This document shows, in pieces, positions 21,519 to 28,840 of a stretch of 64,000 bases of DNA. Below the pieces are notes generated by a model. It had not been told where the DNA came from. It made no database searches and saw only the letters and a list, made by a program, of their open reading frames with translations. The stretch's first letter is position 1, and the number at the start of each line of letters is the position of its first letter. The stretch spans positions 1-64,000 of the forward strand of contig NZ_JAEUAX010000010.1 in assembly GCF_019511645.1 (NCBI RefSeq). The letters run 5' to 3'. A program made the position numbers and the translations under genes. The DNA is from Microbacterium ureisolvens (GTDB lineage Bacteria; Actinomycetota; Actinomycetes; Actinomycetales; Microbacteriaceae).

Positions 21519-22079
21519 TCAGCCTCCCCACCAGAGCCGCACGGTGCCGCGCAGCGCCTCGAGCGCCACCGCACCGCGGCCGGGTCCGGACACCGAGAGG
21601 CGCGAGTCGGCCGACTCCGCGCGGTTGTCGCCCATGACCCACACCGCGCCTTCGGGCACGGTGACCCGGAACGGGATGTCGCCGCCCGGGCGCTCCTCGG
21701 TCGCATACGGCTCGTCGAGCGGGCCGCCGTTCACGAGCAGGCGGCCGCTGCCGGCCTCGCAGCAGGCCACGACGTCTCCGGCGACACCGACGACCCGCTT
21801 CACGAGCAGCGTGTCCGCCGTGCCCGACCAGCCCTCGCGGTCGACGAGCAGCACCACGTCGCCGCGCACGGGCGTGCTCCAGCGGTCGAACACGACGGTG
21901 TCCCCGCTGTGGAGGGTCGGGCTCATCGAGTCGTTGCGCACCGTGGCGACGCCGAACGCCGCCGCGATCAGCAGGGCGCCGGCAACCGGAGCCAGGACCG
22001 CAGCGATCCACACGAGCGTGCTGCGCTTGCGGCTTTCCGCCGCGGCAGGCCGCCGAGCCGGGCTGGCGACGGGGGTCAC
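21519..22079 (-). CDS. lepB: signal peptidase I
   Basis: 186 residues. Membrane serine protease that removes signal peptides from exported proteins. One N-terminal transmembrane helix (LVWIAAVLAPVAGALLIAAA), then catalytic Ser in NDSMSPTLHSGDTV, catalytic Lys in LLVKRVVGVAGD, and the box GDNRAESADSR. Short for the family but complete in its catalytic boxes. The GTG start overlaps the stop of the DUF305 gene (GTGA), so the two are coupled; exported neighbours (copper amine oxidase proteins) may be clients, but this is speculation. Confidence 0.92.
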   Translation of the reverse strand: MTPVASPARRPAAAESRKRSTLVWIAAVLAPVAGALLIAAAFGVATVRNDSMSPTLHSGDTVVFDRWSTPVRGDVVLLVDREGWSGTADTLLVKRVVGVAGDVVACCEAGSGRLLVNGGPLDEPYATEERPGGDIPFRVTVPEGAVWVMGDNRAESADSRLSVSGPGRGAVALEALRGTVRLWWGG

Positions 22080-22762
22080 GGCACCTGGGCGAGGAGCGCC
22101 GTCATGGCGTCGATCTCACGCTGCTGCTCCACGAGCACGTGCTTGCCGGAGGTGCGGACGAATGCGTTCGATCCTTCCCGCACGGCGCTCTCGGCCATTT
22201 CGAGCGCACCGTCGTGATGCGCGATCATCAGCTCGAGGAACATCCGATCGGCGTCGACTCCATCGGCGGCGTCGAGCGCGGCGAGCTGCTCGGCGGTCGC
22301 CATGCCCTTCATCCGGGTGTGCGGATGATCGCCGCAGCCGGTCGCGATCGCGCCGACAACGGCCGGCGAACCGCCGTGACCCTGATGGGCGCCGGCAGTG
22401 CCCTCGGCCGGGATGGCGCCGCGCCACGCGCTCTGCCACGCCCGCATCGTGTCGATCTCGGCGGTCTGGTCGGCGACGATGAACTCGGCGAGCGCGCGGG
22501 TGCGCTCGCGAACACCGGCGGCGCCCAGCACGAGGCCGCTGAGCTCGAGCGCCTGCTCGTGGTGCGGGATCATGCCCTCGATGTAGCAGTGGTCCTCGAG
22601 GGTCGGGTAGGCGGCGGTGGCGGCATCCGTCATCGCTCCTGAAGCTGCCGCCTGCGGAACCGAGTCCTTCGCGGTCGTCAGCCCGAGTGCGACCGCGGTG
22701 CCGGCGACGGCCACGGTCGACACGGCCAGCGCGACGCCGAGTGCGGCGATGCGATTGCGCAT
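22076..22762 (-). CDS. DUF305 family exported protein
   Basis: 228 residues. N-terminal signal/anchor (IAALGVALAVSTVAVAGTAVA), then two half-repeats of the DUF305 four-helix fold, each with the paired histidines: CYIEGMIPHHEQALELS and FLELMIAHHDGALEMAES. The family is often linked to copper handling (CopM-like), and a histidine-rich middle (GAHQGHGG) fits metal binding. The ATG at 22762 has AAGGAG 7 nt upstream and is preferred over the much longer open frame. Operon with lepB. Confidence 0.88.
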   Translation of the reverse strand: MRNRIAALGVALAVSTVAVAGTAVALGLTTAKDSVPQAAASGAMTDAATAAYPTLEDHCYIEGMIPHHEQALELSGLVLGAAGVRERTRALAEFIVADQTAEIDTMRAWQSAWRGAIPAEGTAGAHQGHGGSPAVVGAIATGCGDHPHTRMKGMATAEQLAALDAADGVDADRMFLELMIAHHDGALEMAESAVREGSNAFVRTSGKHVLVEQQREIDAMTALLAQVP

Positions 22763-22817
22763 CAATTCTCCTTTCGGATCGGATGCCGCGCCCCCGGCGG
22801 GTGGGGCCGAGGAAGGG

Positions 22818-22857: not shown

Positions 22858-24765
22858 TCAGGCGTGAGCCTTCGCGCCCTGCTGACGCCGCAAGTACCAC
22901 GAGGTGCCGGCGAGGCCCGCACCGGCGACCAGGAGCACGAGCCCCGAGAGCGCCCAGCGATTAGCGTCGGTGCCCGTGGTCGCGAGAGCGCCGAACACCG
23001 CCGCGGGCGACGCGGACGCCACGGTGAAGGTGCCCTGCGCGACCGCCGAGGAGGTCTGACCGGTCAGCACCAGCGTGTGCTCGCCGGCCGGCGTGCCCGA
23101 CGGGACGATGAACTGCGCGCTCACGACGCCCTCGCTGTCTGCCACGAAGGTGCCGACGTCGACCGGATCGGAGTGCATCACGGCGCTCACGGTCTCACCG
23201 GGAGCGAAGCCGTCGGCGGTGGCCGTCTGCGCGGCGCCCGGCGCGACCTCGTCCGACCCGAACGTCACCGAGGCTGCGGCCGGCGCGGCCGCGTTCCCGT
23301 TGCCGTTCCCATTCCCATTGCCGTTGCCGTTGCCGTTCCCACTCCCGTTGCCGTTCCCGTTGCCGTTGCCCGGGGCGGTCGGCGTCACGGTGGGTGTCGG
23401 CTCACCCGTAGGCTCGGTCGTCGGGGTGGGCGTGGGCGACGCGGTCGGCGTCGGGGTGATGTTCGGGTTAGGAACACCCCGCATGTCGCCGTTGACCCAC
23501 TTGCGGCCTTCGGGGATGTTGGGGTTCTGCGCGGCGAAGTCGCGCGGGTAGAGCGTGAAGCCCTGCCAGTGGATCGGCATTGGGCTCTGGTCCTCGTCGC
23601 GGTTGATGTGGTGGAAGCCGACGTTCACCCACGCCACCGGGTCCTCGAGCGACTCGGCATCGGCGATGTAGTCCGTGACCATCTGACCCGCCTTCGACGG
23701 GATCAGGTTGTGGCTGGCGTGGATCTCGTCCGACTTGGCCGACGTGAACGCGATGTCGAAGTCAGTCTCGGGGTTGAGGTTGTACGCCTGGTCGCGCGGC
23801 ACGATGATCTCGTACGAGCGGGCGTGGCCGTCCGCGTTGAGGCTGTCCGGGTTCACGACCCGGTAGGCCTCGCGGTTGGACCCCATCGTCTTCGTCTCGT
23901 TCGTGATCTGGCTGAGCTGCGTCTCCAGGATCGCGGTGTGGCCGGTGTCGCCGGTCGTGCCGTACTCGCCCGTCGGCGTCGTGGCGAACTTCTCGACCAC
24001 CTGGTTCGCACCCGAGTCGATGCCGAAGTCGACGCGCCAGAATGCGGAGTGGTAGTGGTTGACGGCGAAGTCCTCCTGGCCCGGCGCGATCGGCCAGCCC
24101 TGGTTGACGACGTTCACGTAGTCGTTGGGCGACAGGTCGCCGGTCGCGCCGAGGCGCACCGAGATCTCGCCGTCGTCGTGGAACCGGTACTCCGTCTGGT
24201 ACTCGTACCAGCCGATGCGCGAGACCGTGTGCAGCACGAGGTCGGTGCCCTGCGCCGCGTAGAGCGCGTCGTTGTTGATGTTCGAGCGGTACGCGAGGCC
24301 CGAGTCCTCTTCGCCGATGCAGAGCGCGGGGATCGTGCCGCGCGTCGCGTCGACCCACGCGCTGAAGACCTCGCCGACCGGGCAGTCGACCGCCGCGATG
24401 GCCTGCAGCCGGCGGCCGCCGACCTGGTAGGTGGTGACGTCGTTGTACTCCGTGGCGCCCGTGTCATAGGGCACGTTGAGCTGGGCGAGCGCGATCGAGT
24501 CCAGCACGAGGATCGGCGCAGCATCGTCGCGCGGCTGGTACGCGATCTTGTCGAGCACGAGGCCGCGGTAGGTGTCGAGACGCCAGCACATCTGCCAGCT
24601 CGAGCCGGACTCGAGCGTCTCCGAGACGAGGGATTCGCCGGAGCAGGATGCCTCGGTGACGGTCTGCGCGGATGCGGCGGCCGGCGCGGAAAGCACGAGG
24701 CCGCCCGCGAGGAGGGCCATCGCAGTGCCCGCGCCGAGCATCCGGCGGAGGGAGGTTCGTTTCAT
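22858..24765 (-). CDS. secreted, wall-anchored copper amine oxidase catalytic-domain protein
   Basis: 635 residues. Signal peptide to about residue 34; residues about 60-420 match the catalytic (C-terminal) domain of copper amine oxidases: ALCIGEEDSG, IGWYEYQTEYRFHDDGEI where Y187 aligns with the tyrosine that becomes topaquinone, NHYHSAFWRVDFGID with copper ligands H237 and H239, and VNVGFHHINRD with H386 as third ligand. The usual Asn just before the cofactor tyrosine (NYD/E) is Trp186. Then a TP-rich segment, a long NGNG repeat (465-491), an Ig-like domain, LATTG sorting motif (595-599), membrane helix and basic tail. The N2/N3 domains are absent and appear to be encoded by the upstream gene. 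ATG 24765 chosen for GGAG upstream; METLP start at 24780 possible. Confidence 0.8.
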   Translation of the reverse strand: MKRTSLRRMLGAGTAMALLAGGLVLSAPAAASAQTVTEASCSGESLVSETLESGSSWQMCWRLDTYRGLVLDKIAYQPRDDAAPILVLDSIALAQLNVPYDTGATEYNDVTTYQVGGRRLQAIAAVDCPVGEVFSAWVDATRGTIPALCIGEEDSGLAYRSNINNDALYAAQGTDLVLHTVSRIGWYEYQTEYRFHDDGEISVRLGATGDLSPNDYVNVVNQGWPIAPGQEDFAVNHYHSAFWRVDFGIDSGANQVVEKFATTPTGEYGTTGDTGHTAILETQLSQITNETKTMGSNREAYRVVNPDSLNADGHARSYEIIVPRDQAYNLNPETDFDIAFTSAKSDEIHASHNLIPSKAGQMVTDYIADAESLEDPVAWVNVGFHHINRDEDQSPMPIHWQGFTLYPRDFAAQNPNIPEGRKWVNGDMRGVPNPNITPTPTASPTPTPTTEPTGEPTPTVTPTAPGNGNGNGNGSGNGNGNGNGNGNGNGNAAAPAAASVTFGSDEVAPGAAQTATADGFAPGETVSAVMHSDPVDVGTFVADSEGVVSAQFIVPSGTPAGEHTLVLTGQTSSAVAQGTFTVASASPAAVFGALATTGTDANRWALSGLVLLVAGAGLAGTSWYLRRQQGAKAHA

Positions 24766-24782
24766 CGGGAGTGTCTCCATGG

Positions 24783-25625
24783 TCATGAGATGGTCAGGAC
24801 GGCACGCGTCGACAGGTTGACGACGTATGTGCTGGTGGTGAGGAAGGCGCCGCCGTCGACCTGGGCGAGCACCTGCACGCATCGGTCGACGCCGCAGGAT
24901 TCGGCGCCGAAGGATCCGGCATCCGTCACGAACGAGTGGGCGGTCAGCAGCACCTCGGCCGACGCCGGCGTCAGCACCGAGCCGCCGGTGAGCGCGGCGA
25001 ACTCGTCGACCACGGGCTGCGCCGCGTCGTCGGCGAGCAGCAGCTCCCACGCGAACGATGTCTCGGCATCGGTCGGAGCAGGCTGGGTGCCCGACGCGCG
25101 GTCGACCGACTCGACGGCGCCGTTGGTCACGTTGACGATCATGCTGACCGTCTCGTCGGTGGCGTAGTCGTAGTACAGCGAGAGCAGCCGGCGGTGCCCG
25201 TCCGAGTATGCCTGCGGGTCGGCGACGTCGGTCGAGAGGAACTGCAGGCCGGGCTCGCCGAACAGGTCCTTGCCGGCGGCGAAGGCGGCATCCTGGGCGC
25301 CCACGAAGCGGACGTACTCGACCTCTTCGCCGGTCAACCCGTCGTACGCGGCGGCCACGGTGGTCGGCTTCGGAACCTCGGTCGCCTTCTCCGGTGCGTC
25401 CTCGTCTGTGCTGTCGGCGGCGATCGGGGTGGACGTGGGCGTCTCGGGCGACGAGGTCGCCTGCACGGCGGTCTGCGTCGCGAAGACCAGGGCGACGGCC
25501 GCGGCGGTCGCGGCGAGCGCGGAGCCGATCCCGAGCGTGCGGGGCGTGAGGAAGCGGCTCCGCCTCGAGGGCCGCGGGTCCGAGGGCGGCGAGTCCCCCT
25601 CGGTGGAGAGCTGTTGTTCGGTCAC
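24783..25625 (-). CDS. membrane-anchored protein resembling copper amine oxidase N2/N3 domains
   Basis: 280 residues. Short cytoplasmic basic stretch, one transmembrane helix (IGSALAATAAAVALVFATQ, about 33-51), a Thr/Pro/Asp-rich linker, then an extracellular domain. YDGLTGEEVEYVRFVG, LLSLYYDYATDETVSMIVNV, GTQPAPTDAE, ELLLADDAAQPVVDEFA and a final STYVVNLSTRAVLTI follow the order of features of amine oxidase N2 and N3 domains (the '..GVQPPVT..E' and '..G..VVDL....V..V' stretches). The catalytic-domain gene follows 17 nt later, so the two probably form one enzyme. Cys pair in CGVDRC. GTG start with GGACTCCT upstream. Domain match is by eye and needs a profile search. Confidence 0.6.
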   Translation of the reverse strand: MTEQQLSTEGDSPPSDPRPSRRSRFLTPRTLGIGSALAATAAAVALVFATQTAVQATSSPETPTSTPIAADSTDEDAPEKATEVPKPTTVAAAYDGLTGEEVEYVRFVGAQDAAFAAGKDLFGEPGLQFLSTDVADPQAYSDGHRRLLSLYYDYATDETVSMIVNVTNGAVESVDRASGTQPAPTDAETSFAWELLLADDAAQPVVDEFAALTGGSVLTPASAEVLLTAHSFVTDAGSFGAESCGVDRCVQVLAQVDGGAFLTTSTYVVNLSTRAVLTIS

Positions 25626-25876
25626 AGGAGTCCTTTCGACGGCGAAGACGCGGCTCGCACCCGCATCGGGGCCGATTCTTCGACGCCGCCGTTTCCCGAT
25701 GATTCGGGGCCGCGAACGCCCGGCGAAAACCTCGTGAGACGACGGCGAGCGCGCAAGGCGTTCCGATCTCAGGGCACGTCACGCGGCCGAAACATGCCCC
25801 GTCGTTCCCGGCAACGCGCAGGCAGTAGCGTCACCGCCAGTCGTACGGCAGTGTGCGCCGGGAGCGAGGAGGACGC

Positions 25877-27316
25877 GTGAGCAGTGCACTCGCGAACGCG
25901 ATCGAGCGGGCCCGCCCCCGCAACGACCTCGGCACCAGCTCTCCGTTCGCGGGGCTCCACCGACGCCATGCCCACACGATCGATGTGGTCGCGCAGTCCG
26001 TCGCGGCCACCGCGCCGGCGGGCGTGCTGCTGATCCACCCCGCCGCCGCCTTCGCCCGCAGCGGCTCCTTCGCCTTCCTCGACATCGCGATCACCATCAC
26101 CCTCGTCGTCGGCGTCGGTCTCGTGATCGGCATGTTCGCGCGCCGTATCTCCAGCACCGGCTCCCTCTACACGTTCGCCGTGCGGGGCCTCGGCCCCCAC
26201 GTCGGTCTCCTCACCGGCGCGGCGCTCGGCGTCGGCTACCTCGCCGTGGCGATGAATACGCTCGCTTCGGGGTCGACGCGACTCGCGAGCATCATGAGCG
26301 GGGGCGATGCTCCTCCGTGGCTCGTGATCGCCCTCATCGCAGGCTTCGGTGCGGTCATCGCCACCGTCGTCGCCCGGGGATTGCGCATGTCGACACGCGT
26401 GCTGCTCATACTCGAGTCGATCGCCGTGATCACCGTGCTGGGTCTGTCGGTCGCCGCGCTCAGCCTCACCAGCTGGGACGTGGGTCTGCTCATCCCGCGC
26501 GCGTCCGAAGTATCGCTGGAGGCGATCATCACCGGTGTCGCCTTCGCGCTGATCGGTTTCGTCGGGTTCGAGAGCGGCGCCGCGCTCGGCCCCGAGACGC
26601 GGCGCCCGTTCGCCGCCGTGCCGCGCGCGATCATGGTGAGCGTCGGCGCGACGGGGCTCGTGATGCTCGTAGGCACCGCCGCGCAGCTGTCGATCGTGGC
26701 GGAGCGACCGGGCGCGGCATCCCTCGCGTCCGTCACGGGTCTTGCCGGCCTCATCGACGTGATCGTCGCCATCTCGTTCCTCGCCTGCGCTCTCGCGATG
26801 ACCAACGCCGCGACGAGACTGGCGTTCGCGATGAGCCGCGAGGGACTCATGCCCGCGGTGTTCGGGCGTGTGTCTCGTCGCGGGGTGCCGGCGCTCGGCG
26901 GCGTGCTGCTCGCTTCCGCGGTCGCCCTGGTGCCCGTCGCGATCCTCGCGTGGGGAGGCAGCCGCCAGGACATGCGCATCGTCACCTCGCCCGCCTCCAT
27001 CCTCGGTTTCGTCCTGGCCTACGCGTTGGTGTGCGCGGCGGCCCCGGTGTTCCTCGCGCGGATCGGCGAGCTCACCGCCCGGGCGGTCGTGCTGACCGTC
27101 CTCCCCCTCGCCGGACTGCTGTGCGTGCTCGGCTTCTACCTCGCTGCGACGCTGCGCGACAATCCGGCGGGTCTGCTGTGGGCCGTGGGCGTCCTGGCCG
27201 CGGTCGTGGTCGCCGGGTCCGTTCGCATCGCGCGGCATCCGCGCGTGGCGGCACGCATCGGCGTGCACGACTGGCCGACCGATGCCGACTGCATCGACGG
27301 GCCGGCGCGGACGTGA
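25877..27316 (+). CDS. APC-superfamily amino acid/polyamine permease
   Basis: 479 residues with about 12 to 14 hydrophobic helices and the APC hallmarks FARRISSTGSLYTFAVRGLG near the N-terminus, GFVGFESGAALGPETRRP in the middle, and FAMSREGLMPAVFGRVS later. It should exchange or import an amino acid or polyamine. GTG at 25877 has GAGGAGGACGC directly before it. It overlaps the IclR regulator gene (GTGA) and diverges from the amine-oxidase genes over 251 bp; a functional tie between amine oxidation and this permease is possible but unproven. Confidence 0.85.
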   Translation: MSSALANAIERARPRNDLGTSSPFAGLHRRHAHTIDVVAQSVAATAPAGVLLIHPAAAFARSGSFAFLDIAITITLVVGVGLVIGMFARRISSTGSLYTFAVRGLGPHVGLLTGAALGVGYLAVAMNTLASGSTRLASIMSGGDAPPWLVIALIAGFGAVIATVVARGLRMSTRVLLILESIAVITVLGLSVAALSLTSWDVGLLIPRASEVSLEAIITGVAFALIGFVGFESGAALGPETRRPFAAVPRAIMVSVGATGLVMLVGTAAQLSIVAERPGAASLASVTGLAGLIDVIVAISFLACALAMTNAATRLAFAMSREGLMPAVFGRVSRRGVPALGGVLLASAVALVPVAILAWGGSRQDMRIVTSPASILGFVLAYALVCAAAPVFLARIGELTARAVVLTVLPLAGLLCVLGFYLAATLRDNPAGLLWAVGVLAAVVVAGSVRIARHPRVAARIGVHDWPTDADCIDGPART

Positions 27317-28059
27317 GCGGCGCCGGCGCCCCGGGCGACATCCGCCTGCCGGAGAAAGGTCTGGGCCTGGCCCTCGAGATCCTCGAGCAGGTCGCGCGCG
27401 ACGACCGCGGCGCCTCCGCGGCCGAGATCGCCCGCGCCGTCGGCGCACCCCGCGCGACGGTGTACCGCGTGGTCAACTCGCTGGTACGCGACGAATACCT
27501 TGTGCGCCGCAGCGACTTCTCGGGGTTCCTCCTCGGCACGCGTGTGCTCGAGCTCGCGGCGATCGTGGGCGCACGCACCCGCCCGGCGCACGCCGCGCTG
27601 GTCGATCGGCTGCGCCACGACACCGGCGAGGCCGTGCACCTGTTCGCCTTCCACCGCTCGGGTCTGATGGTCCTCGACGAGGACGAGTCGCGTCCGCTCT
27701 CCGACCGCGACGCCCTCCTCGCCGACCCCACACGCTCGGCGATCGGCCACCTCTGGCTCGTGGCGCATCCCGAGCGGCGGCTTCCGCAGGCGCCGAACTG
27801 GCGCATCGATCCGGCACCCGACGAGGTGCGCGCGATCAACGAGGCGTACGCGGTCCGCGGCTACACCGAGCAGGTCGCGCTCCTCACCTCGGATCGCGGC
27901 TGCCTCGCGGTGCCGATCCACGACGAGGCGGCACGCCCCGTGGGTGCGCTGACGCTGTCGACGTCGATCTCACGCCTCTCCGTGGCAGCCCGCCACGTCG
28001 GCGCCCTCCGCGATGCCGCGCGCGCTCTCGCGCCGGTGGGCTCGCTGAGCGGCTGGTGA
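27313..28059 (+). CDS. IclR-family transcriptional regulator
   Basis: 248 residues. N-terminal winged helix (LEILEQVARDDRGASAAEIARAVGAPRATVYRVVNSLV, residues about 20-60) and IclR effector-binding domain with GTRVLELAAIVGAR, CLAVPIHDEAARPVGALTLS. Its GTG overlaps the permease stop, so it is in one operon with the APC permease, which it probably regulates in response to the transported compound or a product. Effector unknown. Confidence 0.88.
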   Translation: MSGAGAPGDIRLPEKGLGLALEILEQVARDDRGASAAEIARAVGAPRATVYRVVNSLVRDEYLVRRSDFSGFLLGTRVLELAAIVGARTRPAHAALVDRLRHDTGEAVHLFAFHRSGLMVLDEDESRPLSDRDALLADPTRSAIGHLWLVAHPERRLPQAPNWRIDPAPDEVRAINEAYAVRGYTEQVALLTSDRGCLAVPIHDEAARPVGALTLSTSISRLSVAARHVGALRDAARALAPVGSLSGW

Positions 28060-28204: not shown

Positions 28205-28840
28205 TCAGGGCACGGCGTCGATAATGCCCTGCAGCGTCTCCTGGTCGGCCTCGGCCTGCTGGAGCACCGCTTCTGCGGACTCCGCCACCGCGGGGTGCGG
28301 ATCGCCCTCGAGGATGAGCGTCACCAGGGCGATCATCCCGGCGTTCTGCGCATGCAGGATCTCGGCGAAGCGCTTCTCGGCGTCGGGATGTTCCGCGGCG
28401 GCGAATCCCTGCAGCGCACTCCACGACGGCATGCCGGGCATCTGGGCGTGATCGGAGCCGTGCCCGCCGCATGGGCCGTCCGTCGGCGGCTCCGCCGGAC
28501 GCGCATCGGCCCACGACAGGTACCACGCCCGGAGGTCTTCGAGCTCGTCCTCGTCGCGCGCGGCGATCCCGGTGGCGAACCCGCTCGCACCGGCCTCGAT
28601 CCCCTGCTTGCGCAGCAGGGTCTCCGCGAGCTCCTGCTCCTTGACCCGGTAGTAGATCATCGCCTCGACGTAGCAGTAGTCGTCGGCCGTCACCGGGGCG
28701 GCCGACGCGGAAGGCGAGACCGACACCGGGGGCGCAGCATCCGTGTCCCGTGCCGCTGCGGCGACCGCCAGCCAGATGCCTACGGCGGCCGTCAGAAGGG
28801 CGAGCGCGAGCGCGACGAAGACGACTGCTCTGCGGCGCAC
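28205..28840 (-). CDS. DUF305-like exported protein lacking the paired histidines
   Basis: 211 residues. Transmembrane or signal helix at about 5-30 (VVFVALALALLTAAVGIWLAV), then a DUF305-like helical domain. Where the family has MIPHHEQA and MIAHHDGA, this protein reads MIYYRVKEQELAE (61-73) and ILHAQNAGMIAL (161-172), so both HH pairs are lost; a His/Gly-rich middle (CGGHGSDHAQMPGM) remains. GTG start at 28840 has AAAGG upstream. Gene stands between a terminator and the HerA-like ATPase gene. The family link rests on length, layout and helix pattern, and is tentative. Confidence 0.6.
   Translation of the reverse strand: MRRRAVVFVALALALLTAAVGIWLAVAAAARDTDAAPPVSVSPSASAAPVTADDYCYVEAMIYYRVKEQELAETLLRKQGIEAGASGFATGIAARDEDELEDLRAWYLSWADARPAEPPTDGPCGGHGSDHAQMPGMPSWSALQGFAAAEHPDAEKRFAEILHAQNAGMIALVTLILEGDPHPAVAESAEAVLQQAEADQETLQGIIDAVP

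Follow-up and report, generated by a model that had tools for sequence, protein, structure and literature searches.

A copper amine oxidase encoded by two genes in Actinomycetes, with an altered cofactor motif

The closest described systems, i.e., the copper amine oxidases (CAOs) AGAO of Arthrobacter globiformis, ECAO and HPAO (PF01179, PF02727, PF21994), are made as one chain. According to the available part of a 2012 review (PMC3382800), all CAOs structurally characterised until then are homodimers, the monomer of which is a single chain divided into domains: D2 and D3 have about 100 residues each and a near identical topology, and D4 holds most of the active site. The window considered here is the whole analysed stretch of 64,000 nucleotides from the soil bacterium Microbacterium ureisolvens (contig NZ_JAEUAX010000010.1). 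A preliminary description of it had read two neighbouring genes, called P1 and P2 below, as a CAO split into two adjacent exported proteins, P2 carrying the catalytic domain and P1 the missing D2-D3 part (N2 and N3 in Pfam). This reading is confirmed. Of the 40 P2-bearing genomes in a 394-genome sample that was not chosen for P2, 39 have P1 immediately upstream of it, thus the adjacency is far beyond chance. The two-gene CAO of Actinomycetes, with its changed cofactor motif, is real; that its two proteins assemble and are catalytically active is what we infer.

The comparison with AGAO, ECAO and HPAO leads to the following picture: (i) the copper ligands, the base Asp, the precursor Tyr and a Cys pair of D4 are shared; (ii) P1 shares the D2-D3 fold and the domain order D2-D3-D4 is kept; (iii) two genes and two export signals are found here whereas the known enzymes are one chain; (iv) the Asn and Thr of the cofactor consensus are replaced by Trp and by R, K, Q or E, respectively, and a triplet H-W-Q is found after the third copper ligand. 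Among the matches listed, no description of a split CAO was found in the open-licence literature.

The two proteins and their domains

Both open reading frames were found on the - strand where they had been placed, P1 being upstream and P2 downstream. The stop codon of P1 ends at 24783 and its TGA shares bases with an ATG that is in frame with P2 (ATGA); the start of P2 is most likely at 24765 (MKRTSL...), 17 bases past this stop and with GGAGA ahead of it, and P2 ends at 22858. The genome assembly that holds the pair has 4.33 Mb, its nearest named relatives being Microbacterium sp. Leaf288 and M. trichothecenolyticum. It also encodes two ordinary full-length CAOs, thus the pair is additional. 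As had been presumed, ordinary enzymes carry D2, D3 and D4 in one chain, and this is so in 22 full-length enzymes of the genus that were read.

By its sequence, P2 is a complete CAO D4. The Pfam search that had been advised gave Cu_amine_oxid (PF01179) above the curated cut-off (E 6.5e-42, 144.3 bits for a cut-off of 27), over profile positions 22-406 of 407. The PDB chains closest to it in sequence are CAOs (3loy, then AGAO), and P2 proteins match positions 236-629 of the NCBIfam primary-amine oxidase model (648 positions). A relative of P2 matches 74 plasmid records, all below 60% identity; those named among the 10 listed are primary-amine or tyramine oxidases. The residues pointed out in the preliminary description, i.e., Y187 as cofactor tyrosine, H237 and H239 as HxH ligands and H386 as third ligand, are correct because the alignment with AGAO puts them on known catalytic residues. 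The three copper His, the base Asp and the precursor Tyr are invariant across all 48 aligned short (P2-type) copies.

Two Cys of P2 align with Cys of AGAO, which we take to be those of its D4 disulfide. The invariant Cys amount to two pairs in P2 and one pair in P1 (CxxxxC, in 45/45 proteins), which fits exported proteins.

P1 is, from its predicted fold and its sequence profile, the missing D2-D3 module of the CAO, as the preliminary description had supposed. For the exported part of P1 (196 residues), AlphaFold gave from 14 sequences a model with a pLDDT of 82.1 and a pTM of 0.73. When it was searched by Foldseek against 350,542 chains, CAOs occupied every one of the ranks 1-45 (E 2.6e-6 to 4.1e-3) and the first unrelated row had E 0.4. 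VIA-align covered both domains in each of the three reference enzymes: Z 10.1 over 163 residues for ECAO 93-279, Z 10.0 for HPAO 17-207 and Z 8.3 for AGAO 11-190. Among the rows shown, the single-domain alignments to other families have Z 6.0 to 7.3. A confident unrelated fold would have spoken against the assignment; the fold found instead is that of CAO D2-D3.

The P1 profile was also used for a blind scan of a class sample, i.e., 394 Actinomycetes genomes of 137 genera. Besides the strong matches, 11 weak ones were obtained (E 8.2e-7 to 1.2e-10), and all of them fall in N2 of full-length CAOs. Their frames all match the N2-N3 profile at E 2.2e-46 or better; a full D4 follows in the same frame in nine cases, and at L149 D4 is truncated by the contig end. 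The remaining weak match, L147 (1022-3477), is in a full-length amine oxidase that is ordinary but for its D4, which is encoded in the frame next to that of D2-D3; this is either a real split or a sequencing error. In the same manner, the three P1 matches at E <= 1 in genome G163 are the N2 regions of three full-length CAOs encoded there.

In NCBIfam, three P1 proteins match the primary-amine oxidase model near its N-terminus (within positions 9-123 of 648), with E 0.0038-0.027 and below its cut-off. For P1 of the window, CU044_5270_fam comes first (E 0.0043, residues 16-69, i.e., the hydrophobic region) and primary-amine oxidase has E 0.027. Three of the 45 P1 members have a weak Pfam match to PT-TG (best E 0.0016). 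A phmmer search of P1 against PDB gave unrelated matches only.

Co-occurrence, arrangement and history of the pair

At most four (P2) or eight (P1) candidates per genome were scored in the class sample, by which weak copies, or additional ones, may have escaped. P2 was found in 40 of the 394 genomes, belonging to 12 of the 137 genera and to six family codes, i.e., the system is common. Strong P1 matches (E <= 1.3e-54) occur in 39 of these same 40 genomes, always adjacent to P2, and in no other sampled genome; the lone P2 genome without P1 is a member of a P1-less lineage. The constant company of the two genes, for which a survey had been proposed, thus holds except for this small lineage, which comprises L041, L042, L084 and the broken L043.

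The other samples give the same picture. Among 149 genomes of the genus, P2 of the window type is present in 13 and P1 at a minimum of 70% identity in the same 13. A second P2 type, 43-44% identical, is found in G168, G215 and G289, each time with its own adjoining P1 (35-36%). A third type, 42-43% identical, is found in G163, G186 and, as a broken copy, in G209, none of them with P1. In the family samples P2 is present in 3 of 249 genomes (window counted) and P1 in all three. The phylum sample gave 6 of 396 genomes, all of the window's class (a figure given without the share of the sample lying outside that class). No P1 match at E 1e-5 was obtained in the plasmid collection. The two-gene CAO is recurrent in Actinomycetes and wider than one genome.

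Two weak P1 matches were rejected. That of G286 in the genus sample (E 1.6e-4, residues 10-124, in a long frame) is N-terminal only, with no P2 at the locus; that of G035, the fourth P1 match of the family samples, covers the N-terminal part of the query only, also in a long frame, and the loci of this genome have no P1 or P2 match.

Sixty loci were inspected, i.e., the 40 of the class sample and 20 others, of which some belong to identical strains or to near relatives and 13 had been retrieved by P1 itself (all 13 named loci so retrieved also have P2). D2, D3 and D4 are never found in one chain: they are split between P1 and P2 in 57 loci, and P1 is wanting in three. In these 57, P1 and P2 share a strand and 98-291 bases separate the stop of P1 from the start of D4; P1 ends 0-3 residues past D3 in all but two pairs (10 and 13 residues). 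In each of the 57 examined pairs, P1 and P2 together cover one enzyme that is broken at the D3/D4 border.

Among the P1-less copies, L041 and L042 carry a lipobox. In both (L041 6906-14999, L042 1303-8459) the lipobox-bearing D4 comes directly after very large repeat-rich surface proteins, with MG2/Invasin_D3-like matches in that of L042. The broken copy L043 (5148-6104, in G209, Microbacterium) is interrupted by a stop.

An unrooted tree was made of 80 D4 domains. In it, a 100/100 branch separates the 48 short copies from the 32 full-length ones, which is consistent with a single origin of the short copies. Either a one-chain enzyme was split or two genes were fused. The P1-less lineage nests inside the short group (90/85), and its position as outgroup to all paired copies was not rejected by the approximately unbiased (AU) test (p 0.203); this lineage either lost P1 or never had it. 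The distance matrices of P1 and P2 are correlated (r 0.95 over 45 pairs), none of 2000 permutations being as high.

Cofactor motif, proposed enzyme and alternatives

The available part of the review gives T-X-X-N-Y-D/E as the CAO cofactor consensus, calls its Asn strictly conserved and reports that N404A in HPAO-1 brings topaquinone (TPQ) down to 5-10% (PMC3382800). In the 32 full-length actinomycete CAOs, T, N and D/E of this consensus are each present 32/32. P2 of the window departs from it with R-I-G-W-Y-E. Among the 48 short copies, the Thr position is occupied by K (21), Q (15), R (11) or E (1), the Asn position by W in all, and the residue after the cofactor Tyr is E (41) or T (7). The H-W-Q triplet after the third copper ligand (residues 365-367 of the mature P2 of the window) is present in 48/48 short copies and in 0/32 full-length enzymes, 30 of the latter having Asp first. 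The AGAO Tyr that lies two residues ahead of the base Asp corresponds, in the short copies, to Y (31), W (7), F (7) or T (3). With Trp at a supposedly strictly conserved Asn position, the P2 clade is a natural test of the purpose of that residue.

The domain identities, co-occurrence, adjacency and active-site residues computed here probably reflect a two-subunit CAO located outside the membrane, with P1 as D2-D3 and P2 as D4. Each protein would be exported by its own signal, and the two would associate non-covalently with the geometry of the one-chain enzyme, D2-D3 of P1 covering the flank of D4 and part of the substrate channel. The amine channel of HPAO-1 includes positions 155-156 in the available text (PMC3382800); these lie within the HPAO range aligned to P1 (17-207), so P1 would presumably supply what the channel wall of P2 lacks. 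D4 would bind Cu(II) via the three His and oxidise its own Tyr to the quinone, and the enzyme would convert primary amines to aldehyde, NH3 and H2O2 outside the cell, by the known chemistry of the family. In the window's lineage LAXTG would direct P2 to the wall. The DUF305 protein encoded alongside may serve as a copper donor, and the signal peptidase may act on the exported chains; the amino acid/amine (APC) permease and the IclR-type regulator suggest the use of an amine. The natural D3/D4 split allows the role of D2-D3 in cofactor formation, substrate access and dimer stability to be asked by adding or omitting one protein.

Several results weigh against this two-subunit enzyme. Three P2 homologues (L041, L042, L084) and the broken L043 are without P1, therefore D4 can persist without it. 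The cofactor consensus is altered at two positions in 48/48 short copies and, given the low TPQ left by Asn->Ala in HPAO-1, quinone formation in the P2 clade is not assured. P1 would fail a Pfam-only check: the N2/N3 search advised for the 280-residue protein gave an N2 match below the cut-off (AGAO-like_N2, E 0.054, 13.5-14.1 bits vs. 27.4), beside an equally weak DUF2613 match across the N-terminus. AGAO-like_N2 is matched by 8 of the 45 P1 proteins (best E 0.0058, none above cut-off), and no Pfam N3 model matches any of the 45. The P1 profile (hmmsearch, 45 rows) finds no PDB chain at E <= 1. The profile-profile comparison of the 45 P1 with N2-N3 of the 22 full-length CAOs (hhalign E 3.8e-11, prob 97.2, 178 columns), which counts for the assignment of P1, was made without a control pair. 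The AlphaFold model of P2 has a low confidence (pLDDT 31.3, from an alignment of 14 rows of which the others are 67-97% identical to the first). Finally, the correlation of the P1 and P2 distances comes partly from shared descent.

The absence of a Pfam match of P1 above cut-off and the single-domain matches to YpmB/YpeB-like folds (Z 6.7-7.3) would fit an unrelated cystatin-like or PepSY-like exported protein, adjacent to P2 by chance. This is extremely improbable and already contradicted: the both-domain matches are CAOs only, among the rows shown, and the profile-profile comparison and the blind genome matches point to CAO N2. Alternatively, P2 could be a self-sufficient catalytic-only amine oxidase and P1 a helper derived from D2-D3 (export or cofactor chaperone, inhibitor or docking protein) which is no stable subunit. 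The P1-less loci agree with it, since their P2 homologues keep intact catalytic residues, as does the own export segment of P1, which would be tethered if uncleaved. On the contrary, the co-occurrence is near-perfect elsewhere (39/40 genomes), both the D2 and D3 folds are kept full length in P1, as structural parts would be, and two of the three P1-less copies have a lipobox, i.e., a different build; a helper is thus rather unlikely.

It is less likely still that the members of the P2 clade have given up topaquinone and either serve as copper proteins in another role or employ a differently modified Tyr-Trp site. The replacement of Asn by Trp and of Thr by Arg, Lys, Gln or Glu, both in 48/48 copies, would agree with this, and so would the neighbouring DUF305 gene, whose family includes CopM, copper-binding in the available part of its description (PMC4335983). 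However, copper ligands, base Asp, precursor Tyr and Cys pair are invariant in distant copies, which is hard to explain without redox catalysis. To return to the two-subunit enzyme, a more extended form of it, which we consider doubtful, would be a heteromeric CAO branch having (i) a separate membrane- or wall-tethered channel subunit; (ii) Trp-Tyr in place of Asn-Tyr, with the cofactor made by a different route or being a different quinone; (iii) a dedicated DUF305 copper carrier and signal peptidase in the operon.

Export, anchoring and neighbouring genes

The hydrophobic segment of P1 would be either a membrane anchor or a cleaved signal peptide. The C-terminal part of P2 has a linker of low complexity and one more domain, then LATTG with its hydrophobic stretch and basic tail. 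LAXTG is given as the class E sortase signal in the available part of the source (PMC5148588), and P2 is like the substrates described there in its LATTG, hydrophobic segment and basic tail. The window genome has two sortase genes (PF04203, both above cut-off). P2 differs in that the motif was found only in copies from the window's family: a search of the 60 C-terminal residues for L[AS]xTG gave it in copies of this family only, L079 of the same family being without it. Thus, of the LATTG anchoring announced for P2, the tail itself stands in the window protein, whereas wall anchoring appears to be lineage-specific. At L083 (4131-6428), P1 and P2 are in one reading frame, with one in-frame stop followed by the own signal peptide of P2.

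Table 1. Positions in the window of the P1 and P2 genes, their elements and the neighbouring genes.
Feature	Position	Strand	Basis
P1, exported protein with CAO D2-D3 module, 280 aa, GTG start	24783..25625	-	AlphaFold/Foldseek, hhalign, synteny with P2
P1 putative hydrophobic export/anchor segment, about residues 31-54	25464..25535	-	read from sequence
P1 exported D2-D3 region, 196 aa, ends at last D3 strand, invariant CxxxxC	24786..25373	-	aligned to ECAO 93-279, HPAO 17-207, AGAO 11-190
P2, exported catalytic-domain-only CAO with LATTG sorting motif	22858..24765	-	PF01179, AGAO alignment
P2 D4 catalytic domain (PF01179)	23518..24600	-	Pfam profile match
Catalytic base Asp	24439..24441	-	aligns with AGAO D298; 48/48 short and 32/32 full-length enzymes
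Cofactor motif SRIGWYEY (precursor Tyr 24205-24207, Trp before it instead of Asn)	24199..24222	-	48 short vs. 32 full-length enzymes
Copper ligands HxH	24049..24057	-	AGAO alignment; 48/48 short copies
His acting as third copper ligand (the second one in GFHH)	23608..23610	-	AGAO alignment; 48/48 short copies
LATTG sorting motif, then hydrophobic stretch and basic tail	22972..22986	-	sequence; LAXTG in related copies of same family
DUF305 exported protein, next gene downstream of P2	22076..22762 (start inferred)	-	PF03713 E 5.9e-39
Type I signal peptidase, 4-base overlap with DUF305 gene	21519..22079	-	PF10502 E 1.1e-27
Divergent amino acid/amine permease (APC)	25853..27316	+	PF00324 E 3.5e-18
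IclR-type regulator (stretch scanned; start approximate)	27316..28056	+	PF09339/PF01614

The neighbours were scanned in 59 loci, the Pfam names being checked for the window genes only; the counts are not independent because many loci are close relatives. Thirty loci have a DUF305 gene a short way downstream of P2 and in the same orientation, and 29 have a type I signal peptidase gene downstream, likewise in this orientation, which gives the recurrent gene block P1-P2-DUF305-signal peptidase. The DUF305 and signal peptidase genes (21519-22768 in the window) come after P2 and form an apparent operon with it, in other actinomycete families too. The APC permease is nearby in 26 loci and the IclR-type regulator in 28. 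In one clade this last pair lies upstream with a divergent orientation, in others (L030-L032, L082, L093, L094, L109, L110) it lies downstream, thus its linkage to P1/P2 survives rearrangement. None of the four genes is found in the roughly 10 kb covered at the 16 loci of family code f26, with genomes of 8-11 Mb that are probably Streptomyces, or at the 7 of f24.

CopM is a copper-binding DUF305 protein according to the available part of its source (PMC4335983). The window protein shares its family (PF03713), and the genomic context differs, the gene being here next to P2. By this family membership and gene position, the window DUF305 protein is a candidate copper-handling partner. A few kilobases upstream from P1 and P2 there is a second DUF305 gene (28205-28840, E 1.5e-11).

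In two f26/f24 loci that were read, from other families, the pair is found among alpha-glucan/trehalose-type genes. At L089 (1-3867) it is beside alpha-amylase-family proteins, one of them with CBM48, and at L113 (2415-9836) the order is amylase-family protein, maltokinase-like protein, P1, P2 and GlgB-type branching enzyme.

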